DNA of 64,000 nt from positions 1 through 64,000 of the forward strand of contig JAFUDJ010000020.1 of NCBI GenBank assembly GCA_017459445.1, in the 5' to 3' direction. This document shows positions 14-39,400 of this stretch, piece by piece. Positions within the stretch are counted from its first letter, which is position 1. The number at the start of each line of letters is the position of its first letter. The notes beneath the pieces are model-generated. The model was given only the letters and a program-made list of their open reading frames with translations. It ran no database searches and was not told where the DNA came from. Both the position numbers and the translations under genes were made by a program. The stretch comes from Prevotella sp. Its GTDB lineage: Bacteria > Bacteroidota > Bacteroidia > Bacteroidales > Bacteroidaceae.

Positions 14-772
14 ATGGCTAAGAATATAAGTTTCACTATTAAATTTTGGCGTCAGAATGGTCCGAAAGATGCGGGTCACTTCGATACGCACGAAATGCAC
101 GACATTCCCGATGACACCTCGTTCCTCGAGATGCTTGACATCCTGAACGAGGAGCTCATCAACGAAGGCAAGGAGCCCTTCGTGTTCGACCACGACTGCC
201 GCGAGGGTATCTGCGGTATGTGCTCTCTGTATATTAACGGAACGCCTCACGGCAAGACGGAGCGCGGTGCCACCACCTGTCAGCTCTATATGCGCCGCTT
301 CAACGATGGCGACGTCATCACCGTCGAGCCTTGGCGCTCAGCAGCCTTCCCCGTCATCAAGGACTGTATGGTTGACCGCAATGCCTTCGATAAGATCATT
401 CAGGCTGGCGGCTATACCACCATCCGCACTGGTCAGGCTCACGATGCCAACGCCATCCTCATCCCCAAGGAGGATGCCGACGAGGCTATGGACTGTGCAT
501 CCTGCATCGGCTGTGGCGCCTGCGTCGCTGCTTGTAAGAACGGCTCAGCCATGCTCTTCGTATCGTCGAAGGTCTCTCAGCTCGCCCTGCTTCCCCAGGG
601 TCGTGTAGAGGCTGCCCGTCGTGTGAAGAACATGATAGCCAAGATGGATGAGCTCGGCTTCGGCAACTGCACCAACACCCGCGCCTGCGAGGCCGTCTGC
701 CCGAAGAACGAGACCATCGCCAACATCGCTCGCCTGAACCGCGAGATGATTAAGGCAAAACTGGCTGACTAA
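14..772 (+). CDS. sdhB: Fumarate reductase/succinate dehydrogenase iron-sulfur subunit
   Basis: This is the electron-transfer subunit of the membrane-bound fumarate reductase/succinate dehydrogenase complex, passing electrons between the flavoprotein SdhA/FrdA and the quinone site. The 252-residue length fits the family. Cys62, Cys67, Cys70 and Cys89 form the plant-ferredoxin-type [2Fe-2S] site. Cys161, Cys164, Cys167, Cys170 and Cys174, with Cys219, Cys225 and Cys229 (the last followed by Pro), supply the two C-terminal ferredoxin-type clusters. The ATG at 14 starts MAKNIS and the reading frame is intact. The flavoprotein and cytochrome b genes probably lie just left of the window (inference). 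In anaerobic Bacteroidales this complex usually works as fumarate reductase in succinate formation. An oddity is that the last three codons and stop lie inside the first copy of a 36-bp tandem repeat. Confidence 0.95.
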
Positions 773-956: not shown

Positions 957-2309
957 CTATGCCTCTTTCCACCAACTATCCTTCATCCTGCAAATAGCTT
1001 GTGCAATGCAATTCATGGCTTTGCAGAAAGGGACACTGATGCTTTCCTCGTGACTTCTGTATTGATAAGCCCAAGGCGTGATTAGCAGTAGATTTCCTGC
1101 AGCACAGTCGTCCATATGGTTAGCTGAGGGATGGTAGATGTCGGCAAAGCCATTATCCTCTATCCGAATGACGGGATAGCCTGAAAGCAGGGCCGTGTCT
1201 AATATCTCCTGCTCACCTTTCGAGATACGGGCCGACACCAATACGGAACCCTTTGCAGCTTCTTCCAGACAGCGGGCCTTTTGTTGTGCAAACAGAGCGG
1301 CATCCTTACGATGGCAAACCACTGGCAACAGTCGCCGCTGCAGCAGTTGCGCATTACCATAGCTGTCGCACATAATCCGACCATTGGCCTGCAATAGCCG
1401 TTTTCCCAGCATGGCTACCGCTTCTGCATTCAATTGCTGTGGACATTCGCGCTGCAAATAGCCATATAATGCCCTAAGACTGACAGCGGTATCTATGGTG
1501 TGCCGTTGTGGTTGAAGCCACGCCCGGTTCATCGCTCGCTGTAGGCGGCAGCGAGGGTTGGCATGGATATAGGCCCGTTGCGTCGCCAGCTGCTCTGCAT
1601 CTACCGGCATCACGTCACAATAGCCGGCCTCGAACAGGGGCGACAGCTCTTTTATAGCCACCAACCGTTCCTTGGCGACCGAATCGCCAAGCACACTATT
1701 CCGCCCGTGCCTCTCTGCCGTTCCCGCTGTGTCTGCCTCTTCTGTTCCTGCCACCGCTGTGTCTGCCTCTGCTGTTCCAGCCTTTGCTTCTGCTGTTCCT
1801 GCCTCTGCTTCTGCAGTGCCTGCCTTTACTGTGCCTGGCGATTTGGTCGCCAGGTTACCCTCAGTCGTCAGGCCGCTTTTGCTTTCTGCCAATGCCCCCG
1901 TCATCACCCAGTATCGCCTGTTGCACCCATATTTAAACCCCGCAATGACGTGCCCCAGATGCGTCTTCTTACCACTGCGTGACACCACGTCGCTATGCGC
2001 CACCAACAGGAAGTGCAGATGCTCCGGCATCACGACATAGTCCTGTACCTCCAGCATCGGATACACCCGGCGGATGCTCTCTCGCAGTTCCTCTTCCACC
2101 ATCCGCCCTATAGGTGTCAGCTCCACATGCGGAGCCTCGCTGTCACCATCTGGCTTGTCCAGCCGCCCCACGACCCGTCCCAACGGCTGTCGGAGCCCTT
2201 TGGCTACGCTAATCGTGATATGGTAATACCCACAGCGGTCGTAGTCATGAGCCTGACTGCGCCGCTTCATGCTATGTATCGTTGGTTTCCTAATTTCTCT
2301 ATCCATCAT
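957..2309 (-). CDS. REP-associated (Y1/HUH) transposase-like protein with a long C-terminal extension
   Basis: The N-terminal part has the RAYT/IS200-like signature: the MPEHLHFLL motif carries the HUH pair at His97 and His99, and FKYGCNRRYW follows with Tyr127 as a candidate nucleophile. Such proteins nick and join single-stranded DNA at palindromes. At 450 residues this is much longer than most RAYTs. A low-complexity Ala-Gly-Thr-Glu segment (near residues 160-197) joins it to a C-terminal part with VLVSARISKGE, GYPVI and LLLITPW motifs, which recalls the Rossmann-like DprA/SLOG fold (inference). A TAnnTTTG box at 2327-2334 lies about 18 nt upstream of the ATG at 2309; the ATG at 2270 is the alternative start. 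No matching ends of an insertion sequence were seen, so it is probably a domesticated single copy. Confidence 0.72.
   Translation of the reverse strand: MMDREIRKPTIHSMKRRSQAHDYDRCGYYHITISVAKGLRQPLGRVVGRLDKPDGDSEAPHVELTPIGRMVEEELRESIRRVYPMLEVQDYVVMPEHLHFLLVAHSDVVSRSGKKTHLGHVIAGFKYGCNRRYWVMTGALAESKSGLTTEGNLATKSPGTVKAGTAEAEAGTAEAKAGTAEADTAVAGTEEADTAGTAERHGRNSVLGDSVAKERLVAIKELSPLFEAGYCDVMPVDAEQLATQRAYIHANPRCRLQRAMNRAWLQPQRHTIDTAVSLRALYGYLQRECPQQLNAEAVAMLGKRLLQANGRIMCDSYGNAQLLQRRLLPVVCHRKDAALFAQQKARCLEEAAKGSVLVSARISKGEQEILDTALLSGYPVIRIEDNGFADIYHPSANHMDDCAAGNLLLITPWAYQYRSHEESISVPFCKAMNCIAQAICRMKDSWWKEA
1719..1832 (-). repeat. In-frame 21-bp minisatellite inside the transposase-like gene
   Basis: Imperfect copies of a roughly 21-bp unit encode seven-residue repeats of the AGTAEAE/AGTAEAK type. 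The frame is kept throughout, so copy number can change the linker length without breaking the protein. Confidence 0.8.
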
Positions 2310-3526: not shown

Positions 3527-4115
3527 ACTCAGTAATACCAATATCTCCATTGCCCTCGGTCTGGTGGCGGTGGGGGTGGCCGTGGTGTTCCGGCTGTTCT
3601 CAGAGGCCGACTTGTGGTTTCAGATGTTTTCGGCCATCTTGGGTGTTATCATCACGATTATTATTACAAACCTACTGCTGAACAGTCAGACCAATAGCGA
3701 CATTGAGCGGGAGCGCAGTTCGGAGGTGTTCCGTGAGAAGCTGCGCATCTATCAGGAGTTCCTGCAAGCACTCTACGATGTGTTGAAGGAGGAAGCCGTG
3801 ACGCCCGATGAAGCCATGCGCTTGCAGTTCCAGACATCGTATATCGCTATGCATACCAGCAGCCAGCATATCCGCGAGGTCAGCGAGTGCGTGTCAAGTA
3901 TCGTAAAGATGTATTCGCAATGCCCCAATGAGCATGGCCGAAAGGTGTTGCAAGACAAGGAACTGCTCTTGAAGAACCTGTTCCGCATCGTTGAGATATT
4001 CCGTCAGGAACTTTACACGGATAAGCCCGATTTCAATCGCGAGGATATTGCCCAAGCCATCAAGAACTTCGACTATGCCTACGACTACTTCATGGCAAGT
4101 TGCCGATTGAAATGA
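3516..4115 (+). CDS. Two-TM membrane protein with a helical cytoplasmic tail
   Basis: This 199-residue protein has two hydrophobic segments near residues 9-26 and 34-54, followed by a long charged helical region (DIERERSSEVFREK onward) that is likely cytoplasmic. I recognise no catalytic motif and no named family. The 11-nt overlap with the preceding EVE-like/nuclease gene implies a shared transcript and function. Small two-TM proteins with helical tails are often membrane effectors or anchors in defence operons, but here that is only inference. The gene is followed directly by the first copy of the repeated leader RNA. Confidence 0.75.
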   Translation: MKFKLSNTNISIALGLVAVGVAVVFRLFSEADLWFQMFSAILGVIITIIITNLLLNSQTNSDIERERSSEVFREKLRIYQEFLQALYDVLKEEAVTPDEAMRLQFQTSYIAMHTSSQHIREVSECVSSIVKMYSQCPNEHGRKVLQDKELLLKNLFRIVEIFRQELYTDKPDFNREDIAQAIKNFDYAYDYFMASCRLK

Positions 4116-4161
4116 AGATAACTTTTTCGTGTATTTTATTCGTTAATTCAGAAATAATTCG

Positions 4162-4169
4162 TATATTTG
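4162..4169 (+). promoter_or_regulatory. TAnnTTTG promoter box of the first leader RNA / mntA-hepT transcript
   Basis: TATATTTG within the promoter segment shared with 2378-2385 and 10360-10367. It is the only visible promoter ahead of mntA-hepT and of the RNA copy that continues after hepT. Confidence 0.7.
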
Positions 4170-4312
4170 CCGTCAGAAATGCAGTTAACGTATTGTCAAA
4201 CCCTTTAAATAGAATAGCCGATGAAGTAAAAACAGAACGAAGAACGCTAACCGACCCGTAATGTTGAGGCCCAGCCTCACGAGGTCACAGAGAGATTTAA
4301 CAAACCACTGAA
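4170..4312 (+). ncRNA. Structured leader RNA, copy 1, 5' part
   Basis: This matches 10368-10500 closely. Shared parts are a TGAGGC-CCA-GCCTCA hairpin (4265-4279), the block GAGGTCACAGAGAGATTT after it, and two short segments, ACAGAA (4232-4237) and ACGCTA (4244-4249). Together those two segments are complementary to a single 12-nt run at 5048-5059. The element is then interrupted by mntA-hepT and resumes near 5025. Confidence 0.75.
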
Positions 4313-4323
4313 CATTGACGCAG

Positions 4324-4620
4324 ATGAAAACAACCAACGAATACATCGACCTTATTAAAGCTCACTCCGACGAGCTCCGCACCCAGTTCGGAGTCAAGAC
4401 GTTACGTCTCTTTGGCTCTGTCTCTCGCGGTGAACAGCATGAGGGTAGCGATGTGGACGTTTGTGTGGAGATGGAGCCGCGTGCCTATCTTGTTGTGCGA
4501 CTGAAGCGCTTTTTGGAGAAACAGTTAAATAACCGTGTAGATGTTGTACACATGCACCCTCATATTAATCCATACTTACTAAAAGAAATTGAGCATGATG
4601 GAATTTACGTCATTCAATGA
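4324..4620 (+). CDS. mntA: MntA-type nucleotidyltransferase antitoxin
   Basis: A 98-residue minimal nucleotidyltransferase of the MNT family, which neutralises the partner HEPN toxin, in studied systems by attaching AMP groups to it. The active-site pattern is complete: Gly31-Ser32 in GSVSRGE and Asp43-x-Asp45 in GSDVDV. I place the start at the ATG at 4324 rather than the TTG at 4315, because the decayed copy at 11381 begins at the equivalent ATG. The 3' end overlaps hepT. The module lies inside the repeated leader RNA and appears to use the RNA's promoter at 4162. Confidence 0.88.
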   Translation: MKTTNEYIDLIKAHSDELRTQFGVKTLRLFGSVSRGEQHEGSDVDVCVEMEPRAYLVVRLKRFLEKQLNNRVDVVHMHPHINPYLLKEIEHDGIYVIQ

Positions 4621-4981
4621 CCGAGAAAGAGTAAGGATAAAATTTGAGCAGATTGACAACGCCATTGACCAACTGAAAGAGTGGAACAAGGATGTCCAAT
4701 CTGCCGAGGACTATTATGTGTCCCCTGGAGGCATGCAAAAACTTGCAGCAAACTGTATGCTCATTGAGGCTATAGGCGAAAGTATCAAGCAGATAGATGC
4801 GATTACCCAAGGAGAGCTGTTACCCAGGCGCTCGGAGATTCCTTGGCCTGATGTCATAGGCTTGAGAAACCATATAGCTCATGGTTATTTTGACATCAAC
4901 GGCTATCTGGTCTTTGACACCATCAAGAACGACCTTGACTCTTTGCAGATCGCTATAAAGTACTTCCTTGATACTATTTAG
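4595..4981 (+). CDS. hepT: HepT-type HEPN ribonuclease toxin
   Basis: A HEPN-fold protein of the DUF86/HepT type, 128 residues. The ribonuclease signature R-x4-H-x-Y is present as RNHIAHGY (Arg91, His96, Tyr98). It overlaps the end of mntA by 26 nt, the usual arrangement of the pair. The start could be the ATG at 4595 or at 4598; a TTG lies upstream at 4589. The toxin probably cleaves RNA when free of MntA (known for the family). A small perfect hairpin (4998-5015) follows, without a T run, so transcription may read on into the second half of the leader RNA. Confidence 0.87.
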   Translation: MMEFTSFNDRERVRIKFEQIDNAIDQLKEWNKDVQSAEDYYVSPGGMQKLAANCMLIEAIGESIKQIDAITQGELLPRRSEIPWPDVIGLRNHIAHGYFDINGYLVFDTIKNDLDSLQIAIKYFLDTI

Positions 4982-5024
4982 TATTACTCTCTCGTCTCCA
5001 CCGCTTTGACGGTGGCAGGATGCA

Positions 5025-5257
5025 CATTATTATATTAACTTACAGAATAGCGTTTCTGTTCGACTTATTACATAGATATTGAGCTTTCAGCTCTTGTCTC
5101 TCTCCAACTTGAAACCGCCAAATTCAGCTACGGAGAGCAAGCAGTCCAGAAAGTTCACGTCGTTAGGGCGTGGACTATTCTTGCTTGTTTCGTAGCATGG
5201 TTACTTGGCGGTACCGAAGTTGGAGAATAAGCAAACGAATGGTTCCGCCTTTTTTAT
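5025..5257 (+). ncRNA. Structured leader RNA, copy 1, 3' part with terminator/antiterminator
   Basis: It resumes the element where copy 2 continues at about 10512. Visible helices: TAGCGTTTCTGT (5048-5059) pairing back to 4232-4249; GAGCT/AGCTC near 5080-5092; a 10-bp helix 5101-5110 with 5217-5226; CCGCCAA (5115-5121) with TTGGCGG (5205-5211); GTTCACG (5153-5159) with CGTGGAC (5169-5175). The terminator arm GGCGGTACC (5207-5215) pairs with GGTTCCGCC (5241-5249) and is followed by six T. It shares bases with the 5205-5211 arm, so the two helices exclude each other. The peptidase gene starts 21 nt after the T run. Confidence 0.78.
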
Positions 5258-5276
5258 CCTAAAAATTGCACAAACG

Positions 5277-6995
5277 ATGAAAGAAAGAACTACTATTACA
5301 TTATTTGCCGTTCTTTTTGCCATTATGGGAATCCATGCACAAGCCGTTGCACCCATGCTGAAAAGCCTTTGGCATCAAGGATATCCTTTTAATAAAGACA
5401 TTCCAAACAGAGTGAATGCAGGTTGCGGTCCGATAGCAGTTGCACAGATACTCAATTATTATCAGTACCCTGTTCATGGATATGGGCATGTTACGCTGTA
5501 TAATGATTTAGACTATTCGATGCATACCATCGACTGGGACAACATCATCAATACGTATGACGAATATAATGAAGTTCAGGCAAACGCAGTCGCTAACCTT
5601 GTATGGCATGTTGGAGCCGCAATGACCCTTAAATACCCAAACAATGGTACAGACAACAATCGCATGATATGGGGATTACAGAAGTACCTGCACATCTCGC
5701 CGAAATGTAGGTTCCGATTACGTAAATTCTACTCGACAGAACAATGGTTGAAGATGCTTGATGAGCAACTAGCATCCGGACATCCTGTTTATTACCGAGG
5801 ACGAGCATTCCGCTATGGATGTGACCCTTCGGGAATTGGCCATATTTTCGTCATAGATGGGAAAAACGAAGAAGGATTGTATCACTTCAACTTCGGGCAT
5901 GCCAATAAAGAACAAGATAAGTACACTAGTCTGGATGTTATCAACCAAAGCGCAGATATTTATCCTGGCGATTACGGAATCTACTACAATTGGGAACAAG
6001 GTATGGCAACTGACTTATATCCCGACGAATATTTCAACGAGGAAGAGTTCAATGACTATCCCGTATATCTGGATGAGCCATTGCACCTCAACTACGACCG
6101 CAAAATGGACGAGCTTACTATCCCCATAGGCGAAACATTCTATCTGAGTACCAAATTGCATATATATACCAAAGATTATTTTATTAAAAATGAAGGCGGA
6201 AACAATTGGACATGGCAACGTGCTCTTGGCGTATATCATGACAGTAAATTCTTAACTGCCATCTATTCGCCACAAAGTCAGTCATTCACTATTAGTAGTT
6301 CTATCAGTTCAACGCTTCCCTTTTCCATTCCAGCCTCTTTAGAAGACGGAGAATACGAGTTGAAAGTTGTAATACGAAGAAATGATGACGAATCATGGAA
6401 GCCCGTCTGGGATATTGCCCCCAATCACATAGCAGCAACAGTAAATAACGGATATGTGACGCTAAAGACCATGGGTGACCACACACAGGAGACACATCTG
6501 TATCTAACAGAACCCATCAAAAAAATAGGAGATTATCATAATGAAGTCAACGGAATATTATATTCAATGAGAATAAAGAATCCGACGGACAATAACTTTG
6601 AGAACAATATTAAGTTTACTATTAAGGGACTCGACGGAAAAGACAGCAAAGACTTCGAGCAGATGGCCTCGGTATATGCTGGCTGTGAGGTTGAATACCA
6701 TTTTCTAATACCCTATAATGAATATTCTGATGTCAGCAGCCTTGGGCATTTCAACGTTGAAGCAAGTTATTATGAACATAACACGAATCAATATGTCAAA
6801 TTGACAACCGATGTTCCAGACATCTCTTCAGTCTTGACCATTAAGGATGAGGTACGTCAAAGATACATTTCCATATATGACACAAATGGGAGACTACGGA
6901 AACGTGTTTCTGACAGTATTGCCCCGCTGAGCGGACTCCCAAAAGGTTGCTATGTTATAAAGCAGGGAGCTACAACTCGAAAAGTGATTAAATAA
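5277..6995 (+). CDS. Secreted C10-family (streptopain-like) cysteine peptidase
   Basis: A 572-residue secreted protein. The start at 5277 gives a normal signal peptide (MKERTTITLF...IHAQA); the in-frame ATG at 5205 lies inside the leader RNA and is unlikely. The catalytic Cys50 sits in AGCGPIAVAQ and His189 in GHIFVIDG, matching family C10. The rest is beta-rich, ending in an ISIYDTNGR...GCYVIK tail like the sorting tails of type IX secretion cargo. Cys50 directly follows the signal peptide, so the inhibitory propeptide of classic streptopain is missing. It is probably a surface or secreted protease. Its expression is likely controlled by the leader RNA that ends 21 nt upstream. Confidence 0.85.
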   Translation: MKERTTITLFAVLFAIMGIHAQAVAPMLKSLWHQGYPFNKDIPNRVNAGCGPIAVAQILNYYQYPVHGYGHVTLYNDLDYSMHTIDWDNIINTYDEYNEVQANAVANLVWHVGAAMTLKYPNNGTDNNRMIWGLQKYLHISPKCRFRLRKFYSTEQWLKMLDEQLASGHPVYYRGRAFRYGCDPSGIGHIFVIDGKNEEGLYHFNFGHANKEQDKYTSLDVINQSADIYPGDYGIYYNWEQGMATDLYPDEYFNEEEFNDYPVYLDEPLHLNYDRKMDELTIPIGETFYLSTKLHIYTKDYFIKNEGGNNWTWQRALGVYHDSKFLTAIYSPQSQSFTISSSISSTLPFSIPASLEDGEYELKVVIRRNDDESWKPVWDIAPNHIAATVNNGYVTLKTMGDHTQETHLYLTEPIKKIGDYHNEVNGILYSMRIKNPTDNNFENNIKFTIKGLDGKDSKDFEQMASVYAGCEVEYHFLIPYNEYSDVSSLGHFNVEASYYEHNTNQYVKLTTDVPDISSVLTIKDEVRQRYISIYDTNGRLRKRVSDSIAPLSGLPKGCYVIKQGATTRKVIK

Positions 6996-10252: not shown

Positions 10253-10307
10253 AGCTTGTTCCTTTTAAATTTTCGTATCAGAATTATAAATGTGGTAAAT
10301 GTGACTG

Positions 10308-10315
10308 CAAAGTTA
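10308..10315 (-). promoter_or_regulatory. Ferritin promoter box
   Basis: The minus strand reads TAACTTTG, 56 nt upstream of the ferritin ATG. It is one end of the divergent cassette ending at 10367. Confidence 0.7.
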
Positions 10316-10359
10316 CAACTTTTTTCTGTTACTTTATTCGTTAATTTGAAAATAATTCG

Positions 10360-10367
10360 TATCTTTG
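10360..10367 (+). promoter_or_regulatory. Promoter box of the second leader RNA
   Basis: TATCTTTG directly upstream of the conserved RNA. The surrounding segment matches 2327-2385 and 4125-4169. Confidence 0.75.
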
Positions 10368-10734
10368 CCAACAGAAATATGCAGTAAACATAATGTTGAA
10401 CCCTTTAAACAAGAATAGCCAATGGAGTAAAACAGAACGAATAAACGCTAACCGACCTACACGTTGAGGCCCAGCCTCACGAGGTCACAGAGAGATTTTA
10501 ATAACAACCAAATTATTAACTTACAGAATAGCGTTTCTGTTCGTACTTATATAAAAAATTTGAGCTTTTAGCTCTTGTTCTTTGCACTCGAAACCGCCAA
10601 AACTTCGAATATAGTAAGAACAAGTAGATGAAAGTTCACGCTTGATAGGCGTGGACTATTTGTTGCTTGTCACTATATAGGTTACTTGGCGGTACCAGAG
10701 TGCAGATAAGCATCGAATGGTTCCGCCTTTTTGT
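10368..10734 (+). ncRNA. Structured leader RNA, copy 2, intact
   Basis: Visible helices, 5' to 3': ACAGAA (10432-10437) and ACGCTA (10445-10450) with 10529-10540; hairpin TGAGGC-CCA-GCCTCA (10465-10479); GAGCT/AGCTC (near 10562-10574); a 7-bp helix 10583-10589 with 10698-10704; CCGCCAA (10594-10600) with TTGGCGG (10686-10692); GTTCACG (10634-10640) with CGTGGAC (10650-10656); terminator GGCGGTACC (10688-10696) with GGTTCCGCC (10719-10727) and five T (10728-10732). The 10583/10698 helix has a different sequence in copy 1 yet still pairs, which is compensatory change. The terminator and the CCGCCAA helix compete for the same bases. The next start codon is 19 nt after the T run. Confidence 0.82.
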
Positions 10735-10751
10735 ACAAAAATGTTTCTATT

Positions 10752-11174
10752 ATGAAAAAATTTTTTATTCTTGTCACCTTAGCATCGCTATCGACTCTTG
10801 TTAATGCACAAATTAACCCGTTTTATAATCCTTATGCTGCTTACCAACAGCATATGCAGAACGTAATCGAACAACAGAACCGTCAGCTTGTCGAGGGATT
10901 TAGAGAACATATGAAAAACTTTAATTGGAATCAATCTGTTCCTGTTCAACAAAACAACTATTATGATAGCGAGTCTAATACATCAACACAGCAACCGCAA
11001 TCCACGCAAGGATACACAAAAACTTGCGGTGTTTGTCATGGTACTGGTAAATGTCGTAACTGTGTCAATGGATGGGTAAAACGAATATCAGGACAGGATG
11101 GACCATGTCCGGTATGCCCCAACCACAATGGCTTATGTAGTTCATGCGGTGGTCGTGGAAGTTGGAAAGAATAA
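10752..11174 (+). CDS. Small secreted protein with a DnaJ-like zinc-finger tail
   Basis: A 140-residue protein. The ATG at 10752 gives a clear signal peptide (MKKFFILVTLASLSTLVNAQ); the upstream ATG at 10731 falls inside the terminator of the leader RNA. The middle is Gln/Asn-rich. The last 45 residues hold repeated Cys pairs, CGVCHGTGKCRNC...CPVC...CSSCGGRG, with CxxCxGxG spacing as in the DnaJ central zinc finger. Zinc-finger tails of this kind occur in secreted Bacteroidota proteins of unknown role. It is probably controlled by the leader RNA directly upstream. Confidence 0.78.
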   Translation: MKKFFILVTLASLSTLVNAQINPFYNPYAAYQQHMQNVIEQQNRQLVEGFREHMKNFNWNQSVPVQQNNYYDSESNTSTQQPQSTQGYTKTCGVCHGTGKCRNCVNGWVKRISGQDGPCPVCPNHNGLCSSCGGRGSWKE

Positions 11175-39259: not shown

Positions 39260-39400
39260 ATTATTGGGGGAGAGACTTAGAATCCCCCGTGAGCCGTGTG
39301 TAAATAGTGGTGTCTTTGGCCGGGCACGACGGTTTGTGAATCACGCCTCAGCACAGACGTTAGACTACAAGCAGGGAGTTAGACCTCTGCGTGTAGTAGT
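39260..39400 (+). ncRNA. Structured leader of the rplM operon (putative ribosomal-protein autoregulatory leader)
   Basis: The leader folds into at least two good helices: GGGGGA (39266-39271) with TCCCCC (39283-39288), and an 11-nt pair of arms 39364-39374 with 39387-39397 (ACTACA/TGTAGT outside, GCAG/CTGC inside). A long structured leader before rplM points to regulation by L13 or S9. L13 leaders of Bacteroidota have been described in the literature, but I cannot check whether this one belongs to them. Confidence 0.6.

Follow-up and report, generated by a model that had tools for sequence, protein, structure and literature searches.

The window, that is, the whole stretch of 64,000 nucleotides of Prevotella sp. 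DNA analysed here, carries two copies of a leader RNA on the forward strand: copy 1 consists of two separated halves (4196–4299 and 5033–5254), and copy 2 is uninterrupted (10360–10732). A BLAST search of the window's own genome with a 401-nt query covering copy 2 (10340–10740) returned five places, including the query itself. The 5' half of copy 1 (4142–4298) was 85% identical to query positions 1–159 and the 3' half (5033–5254) was 79% identical to positions 175–393, which bears out the repeated leader with two copies recognised in the first-pass annotation; further matches lie on contig C35 (76%) and, weakly, on C27. For copy 2 at full length, the calculated folding energy is −102.7 kcal/mol (z = −5.9), a value that none of 100 shuffled sequences reached.

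Two complete, overlapping genes are located between the halves of copy 1 on the same strand: mntA (4324–4620), encoding a nucleotidyltransferase antitoxin of 98 aa (PF01909, 1.3e-13; PADLOC PDC-S09, 2.2e-24), and hepT (4595–4981), encoding a HEPN RNase toxin of 128 aa (PF01934, 8.6e-15, scanned from 4589). The ATG starts were chosen, TTG starts being listed slightly upstream. The neighbouring PF01909 and PF01934 products carry the GSX10DXD and RX4HXY motifs, the latter as RNHIAHGY, and the stretch 4324–4981 is therefore a predicted MntA/HepT toxin–antitoxin (TA) pair, complete and between the leader halves, as had been claimed; the motif definitions and the facts on HepT/MntA are those in the available part of PMC7641770. 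Apart from mntA and hepT, no ORF was found between the halves, either in the window or in a second copy with the same arrangement, L077.

In copy 1, transcription could start from the motif TATATTTG at 4162–4169 (+), the sole TAnnTTTG in 4100–5330, in accordance with the single visible promoter described before; we take TAnnTTTG to be the −7 promoter motif of Bacteroidota. It is followed by a 5' domain that we call type A (4196–4299, from alignment and a covariance model match at 4196–4298), which forms the 5' UTR of mntA and contains a minimal ORF, ATG-AAG-TAA (4221–4229, an ATG-NNN-stop pattern), and a helix GACC..GGTC around the hairpin GAGGC-CCA-GCCTC (4253–4286, from the sequence and the structure of the same model). 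An alternative 5' hairpin, type B (CCACCG..CGGTGG, 4987–5021), begins 6 nt past the hepT stop. Copy 1 has a type A half ahead of mntA and a type B hairpin ahead of the 3' half; the first-pass account of the halves and the gene pair was right but overlooked the type B hairpin. A local hairpin, ACAGAA-UAGCGU-UUCUGU (5042–5059), which occurs in both A and B types, precedes the 3' core domain (5079–5254), where the covarying helices, the antiterminator helix ACCGCCAA (5114–5121)/TTGGCGGT (5205–5212), assigned from folding, alignment and sequence, and the terminator GGCGGTACC (5207–5215)/GGTTCCGCC (5241–5249) with its T run (whole terminator 5207–5255) are found. The next gene (5277–6995, +) encodes a secreted C10 peptidase-like protein (PF01640, 5e-38).

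Copy 2 has the same parts without the inserted genes, all on the forward strand: the motif TATCTTTG (10360–10367), the sole TAnnTTTG in 10290–10770; a type A domain (10397–10498, matched by its model) with the minimal ORF ATGGAGTAA at 10422–10430; the 3' core domain (10560–10732); and the terminator GGCGGTACC (10688–10696)/GGTTCCGCC (10719–10727) with a T run (10688–10732). It leads an ORF (10752–11174) for a small protein with a signal-peptide-like start and no Pfam family. In both copies, the start codon lies about 20 nt past the terminator.

The distribution of the leader was followed with R1, a covariance model of the 3' core built from 23 copies, including both window copies, which score 165.7 bits (copy 1) and 165 bits (copy 2) as training members. 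Within the genus, R1 had a match at E ≤ 1e-3 in 136 of 249 genomes (44 of 107 among the high-quality ones), with at most 11 reported matches per genome; these copy numbers are upper bounds because strong copies may be counted again on the opposite strand. At 1e-7, 66 of 295 genomes of the order had matches, spread over 50 of the 184 Bacteroidales genera sampled; at 1e-5, so did 7 of 198 genomes of a phylum sample, the window's own counted. A motif scan of named genomes gave at least 119 stretches, whose titles, among the matches listed, include Prevotella, Segatella copri, Leyella stercorea, Xylanibacter, Palleniella and Bacteroides acidifaciens. Scanning 80 genome regions with R1 yielded 121 matches, namely 83 sense copies (two in the window) and 38 antisense echoes; 80 of the at least 119 named stretches contributed 81 further matches. 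After 18 duplicates were merged, 146 distinct copies were available, and the search across Bacteroidales proposed in the first-pass annotation has thus turned up a widespread element.

No leader match was obtained in the window with the 4227 families of Rfam 15 at the gathering threshold; in a permissive scan of both copies, the best family was STnc420 with 24.4 bits against 70 required, and four distant loci gave no match up to E 0.1. The same Rfam scan placed the L13-Bacteroidia ribosomal protein leader RF03127 at 39266–39342 of the window. No description of the leader was found by title or abstract start in the literature, nor in the available parts of PMC8040213, PMC9723704, PMC7366714 and PMC2864571; an earlier unnamed listing among the thousands of candidates in PMC8040213 is possible. 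A search of a phage collection with one query found no match and a plasmid search with one query found a single Phocaeicola record, so phages or plasmids are not indicated as carriers. The leader belongs to a large Bacteroidales RNA family absent from Rfam 15.

RNAalifold on the 23 copies of the R1 set gave 13 of 40 pairs with changes on both sides. In an alignment-free test, the strands of helices H2 and H4 were cut out by their flanking motifs, which was feasible in 99 of the 146 copies. The cognate strands of H2 paired at −7.16 kcal/mol compared with −1.74 ± 0.18 kcal/mol when strands were dealt among copies (200 shuffles, 88 distinct pairs), and those of H4 at −6.77 compared with −1.44 ± 0.19 kcal/mol (200 shuffles, 93 distinct pairs); both helices therefore covary about 28–30 standard deviations beyond shuffled partners, with kinship of the copies ignored. 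The non-Watson–Crick cells of H2 comprise 28 G-U, 1 A-C and 7 others, and this asymmetry indicates that the + strand is selected as RNA. H4, with 3 G-U, 1 A-C and 8 others, is uninformative on the strand, and H5 has 117 G-U and no A-C cells, although its search pattern partly fixes the letters. The leader is a real structured RNA, conserved and covarying 5' of a gene on the same strand, as expected of an attenuator. The first-pass annotation had named a lack of further copies, or of covariation between them, as the outcome that would speak against it; with 146 copies and strong covariation, neither is the case.

The 3' domain appears to be built as a switch. In an alignment of 63 rows (62 of 63 new copies and window copy 2, L159 being omitted as a near duplicate of the training row L023), the antiterminator strands ACCGCCAA/TTGGCGGT are paired in nearly all rows, and the antiterminator and the terminator have GGCGG in common. 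The terminator hairpin alone is calculated at −18.2 kcal/mol in copy 2 and −13.8 kcal/mol in copy 1, and forcing the terminator costs 10.6 and 16.9 kcal/mol, respectively, so the mutually exclusive terminator of the earlier account is borne out thermodynamically: in both window copies, the terminator and a more stable antiterminator are predicted to exclude each other. In terms of the conserved domain, the antiterminator helix CCGCCAA/TTGGCGG together with the covarying H2 excludes the terminator GGCGGTAACC/GGTT.CCGCC-U. The strand AGAACAAG also has alternative partners, an upstream strand (a pseudoknot) or a downstream arm: RAGAACAAG pairs with upstream CTTGTTCTY or downstream TRCTTGT, both largely kept in the 63 rows, with the end pair of RAGAACAAG/CTTGTTCTY being C-G in 43, T-A in 13, T-G in 4, C-A in 2 and a gap in 1. 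We infer a two-state design in which, by energy alone, read-through would be the default and termination would need help or a trapped intermediate; failing a ligand or such an intermediate, the terminator may rarely form, the antiterminated fold being so stable.

The 5' part is more variable. Among the 146 copies, 28 have a type A domain and 15 the type B hairpin directly beside the 3' domain, and the rest have more distant 5' parts. Twelve of the 15 B-type copies (including L068, L081, L086, L087 and L133) lack a detectable 5' half in the 0.4 to 4 kb of upstream sequence covered, and the A half is therefore not needed by the 3' half. A TAnnTTTG motif of their own is present in 23 of 28 A-type, 0 of 15 B-type and 51 of 97 remaining copies, compared with 9 of 124 and 3 of 114 control windows.

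The order of A domain, gene pair, and then B hairpin with 3' domain recurs in three copies with two TA types. Besides the window copy, these are L077 (genome G081), with mntA-hepT at the same junction, and L170 (Prevotella sp. RGIG4807), with a PIN pair whose PIN protein is 39% identical to the PIN_3 protein of L066. L082, where an antitoxin gene stands behind an A domain and ahead of a full leader copy, is a partial recurrence, so the insertion of ORFs at this junction, for which the first-pass annotation suggested looking in other genomes, does repeat, albeit with an A-domain/TA order in only 4 of 146 copies. With R2, the model of the A domain, 36 places were found in 31 of 249 genomes; by coordinates, 22 lie beside an R1 match, three lead TA genes (the window, G081 and G034), one is weak (G116), and ten are truncated or decayed, a classification made partly by eye. 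Such truncated relics imply that the family turns over. Small palindrome-like repeats, inserted around the position that corresponds to copy 1's TA junction, are common to copies at different loci (L070/L071, L078/L095 and L129/L137).

Two features of the 5' part concern the ribosome. ATG-NNN-stop is present in 31 of 32 A domains, the middle codon taking seven forms and the stop two, and two copies of another subtype, L070 and L072, have ATG-GGC-TGA at the matching position; a universal minimal ORF was rejected, as the pattern is not found in every subtype. The motif AAAGGAGGT, which we take to be the complement of the 16S 3' end (a Shine–Dalgarno complement), occurs within the last 320 nt, in the leader 5' part, in 18 of 146 copies (e.g., L108, L163 and L177) and in 0 of 121 control windows. 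Judged from these sequence patterns, the minimal ORF and the Shine–Dalgarno complement suggest ribosome engagement as the input of the switch. According to the available part of PMC9976891, Bacteroidota mostly ignore Shine–Dalgarno pairing.

A same-strand small ORF ends 60–420 nt upstream of the leader in 70 of 146 copies. A Pfam scan of 65 of these ORFs, five SdhB being left out, gave PIN_3 (6), PDDEXK_2 (4), HepT (4), DUF2442 (3), NTP_transf_2 (2), HTH_3 (2) and PemK (2), and additional near TA families were GNAT in L084 and AbiEii in L143; we presume the GNAT, HTH/HTH_3 and DUF2442 genes near the leader to be TA genes. The control, a random draw of 140 from the 198 small ORFs in other parts of these loci, had at least 2 PIN_3 and at least 4 HTH_3 (best 25 of 98 families). 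TA homologues make up 26 of 87 ORFs ending within 420 nt upstream and 21 of 79 at 420–1000 nt, compared with 0 of 205 at 1000–4000 nt upstream, 0 of 129 just downstream and 8 of 118 further downstream, a count that is biased towards near proteins because its seeds came from the near set. On this seeded basis, a TA gene or fragment (fragments in L115, L082 and L182) immediately precedes the leader, in the same direction, in 25 of 146 copies, and seven classes are represented: PIN, MntA/HepT, DUF4160/DUF2442, GNAT, HTH antitoxin, PemK/MazF and AbiEii. The TA stop lies 87–410 nt ahead of the core, and in most of these copies the TA genes precede the complete leader and do not divide it. Rpn-like PD-(D/E)XK nuclease genes, named by eye, lie directly upstream in L085, L093, L123 and L126.

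The promoter motif in the region −300 to −90 is present in only 1 of 25 TA-upstream copies compared with 76 of 115 others (p = 4e-9, kinship ignored; six copies whose upstream sequence is shorter than 300 nt were left out). The lone motif, in L135, is inside the toxin gene, and that of L129 is further up, between the TA stop and the leader. The TA and type counts should not be read as numbers of independent events, given the kinship among copies and the sdhB locus that several of the B type have in common. An SdhB ORF was called within 4 kb in 4 of 25 TA-upstream copies, which is an undercount, as antisense ORFs hide some; the TA link is therefore not confined to that locus. Among 40 copies of other families, co-directional TA-like pairs were seen upstream in only three (L311, L324 and L332; by eye from translations). 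At the site downstream of sdhB (window 14–772; L081, L086, L087, L103 and L133), the leader is constant, the upstream TA genes are swapped or missing, and the downstream surface genes are swapped. After sdhB in L068, L081 and L086, there are type B 5' ends with neither promoter motif nor TA genes, and given such copies, some leader copies may be silent relics.

On the downstream side, a same-strand ORF starts within 220 nt in 70 of the first 83 copies. The Pfam scan of these 70 ORFs returned 56 families, the best 25 of which include LRR_5 (BspA-type, 9), dockerin (4), Por_Secre_tail (4), TonB_C (3) and C10 (1) and have no shared pathway. By eye, most downstream N-termini are signal-peptide-like among the matches listed.

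Taken together, these observations lead us to favour, with moderate confidence, a cis-acting leader with a predicted conditional intrinsic terminator in front of lineage-specific secreted or surface genes, in which TA operons supply transcription into the terminator. In copy 1, transcription would start at the A-domain promoter and pass through mntA-hepT; on reaching the 3' domain, the transcript would either terminate near 5255 or read through into the C10 peptidase gene. Because transcription would run in this way from the A-domain promoter through the gene pair to the 3' domain, the TA operon would be the promoter-bearing part of a leader-gated operon. The input of the switch might be ribosome engagement of the 5' domain, through the minimal ORF in type A and the Shine–Dalgarno complement elsewhere, a suggestion we make with less assurance. 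The extension of this idea to an attenuator that senses translation and receives its transcription from TA operons, in which toxins acting on tRNA or mRNA alter ribosome engagement and thereby gate the downstream surface protein, seems to us unlikely.

It is quite conceivable, if somewhat short of probable, that TA modules enter a permissive, AT-rich junction by insertion or recombination and have no functional link, the leader simply insulating the downstream gene from TA transcription. Other small elements do occupy the same linker in the A-type copies L071, L078, L095 and L224 (that of L071 is also in L070), the TA type at the sdhB locus is swapped or absent beside a constant leader, and truncated leader relics are common. 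However, TA classes are commoner than other genes at the upstream position, and the promoter motif is nearly always absent beside TA genes, which insertion alone need not give. The first-pass annotation proposed that the RNA could still fold around the two genes through the helix 4232–4249/5048–5059, so that the TA cassette would be carried inside one structure whose halves pair across it. Complementarity between 4235–4249 and 5048–5061 does exist, is kept in copy 1 and L077, and the junction recurs with two TA types, but the 3' strand is also occupied by the competing local hairpin 5042–5059, which has a closing pair of A-T in 41, G-C in 4 and G-T in 2 of the 47 copies (of 146) fitting its pattern. 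The long-range helix could be scored in 21 of 28 A-type copies (one of them, L082, misread), which show pairs that do not vary, a single wobble due to a change on one side, and mismatches, with no compensatory change on both sides; its 3' strand is conserved also in those B-type copies that have the alternative hairpin and in which a 5' partner was not detected, and two translated genes intervene. The long-range helix was rejected as an organiser for its lack of covariation, and we regard a cassette carried within a single fold as very improbable.

Still less credible is that the element acts at the DNA level as a site of recombination or transposition, of the RAYT/REP hairpin or attC type, and not as an RNA. 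The element is multi-copy, its antisense strand also scores with R1 (the 38 echoes), and 7 of 146 copies are preceded, at no more than 330 nt, by genes for transposases that we presume to be RAYT-like. Yet a strand-symmetric hairpin constraint is not what we see, with G-U far exceeding A-C in H2 (28 to 1) and H5 (117 to 0), an asymmetry on which the DNA-site reading was rejected; moreover, the A-type promoter is at a fixed place, and the terminator U-run is followed by a start codon. Of the seven RAYT-like genes (in L071, L073, L079, L080, L095, L110 and L145), six are divergent, and only that of L145 matches Pfam Y1_Tnp, at E 0.0016 and below the family cut-off; another RAYT-like gene is located at window 957–2309 (−).

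The favoured reading of a TA-fed, leader-gated operon can be compared with known systems. Terminator-type riboswitches and attenuators have a structured 5' leader with an exclusive antiterminator and a U-run terminator; the present leader shares the structured 5' RNA, the exclusive hairpins and the presence of several loci per genome, but differs from both in having no Rfam 15 entry or known ligand, in its heterogeneous surface-protein targets in place of a metabolic pathway, and in the TA genes that immediately precede it in 25 of 146 copies. The window pair resembles MntA/HepT systems in its overlapping PF01909/PF01934 genes and both motifs, and departs from them in lying between two leader RNA domains and running into a terminator. 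ORFs are also found in RNA elements such as HEARO/OMEGA, group I and II introns and retrons, and copy 1 likewise places a protein-coding unit inside or next to a large structured RNA; unlike these, the leader has no Rfam match, most copies have no ORF inside, and in the window and L077 the halves enclose no ORF for a transposase, nuclease or reverse transcriptase. REP/RAYT elements are multi-copy structured elements, as is the leader, which also has RAYT-like genes beside some copies but is selected on one strand as RNA. We rate the leader as one of the attenuator type, with the proposed TA-fed operon as the unusual part; the leader family and the TA coupling go beyond what was originally claimed, and the loop-hosting fold is weaker.

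A family with no Rfam 15 entry probably controls sets of surface proteins in gut Prevotella and relatives, and its repeated coupling to TA genes offers a testable answer to the question of how chromosomal TA modules serve the genes next to them. The motif is present in cultured strains (Segatella copri iAQ1173, Leyella stercorea DSM 18206 and Bacteroides acidifaciens DSM 15896), which make the family approachable. In the other Bacteroidales families, an HTH protein of about 80 aa follows the RNA in at least 11 of 40 copies (L299–L302, L305, L307, L309, L310, L316, L317 and L334); of five tested, three have an HTH family hit with E < 0.01, which in one case is above the curated cut-off, and several have a HIGxxI N-terminus (L300:2172–2405, L305:2072–2341, L307, L310, L316, L317 and L334).
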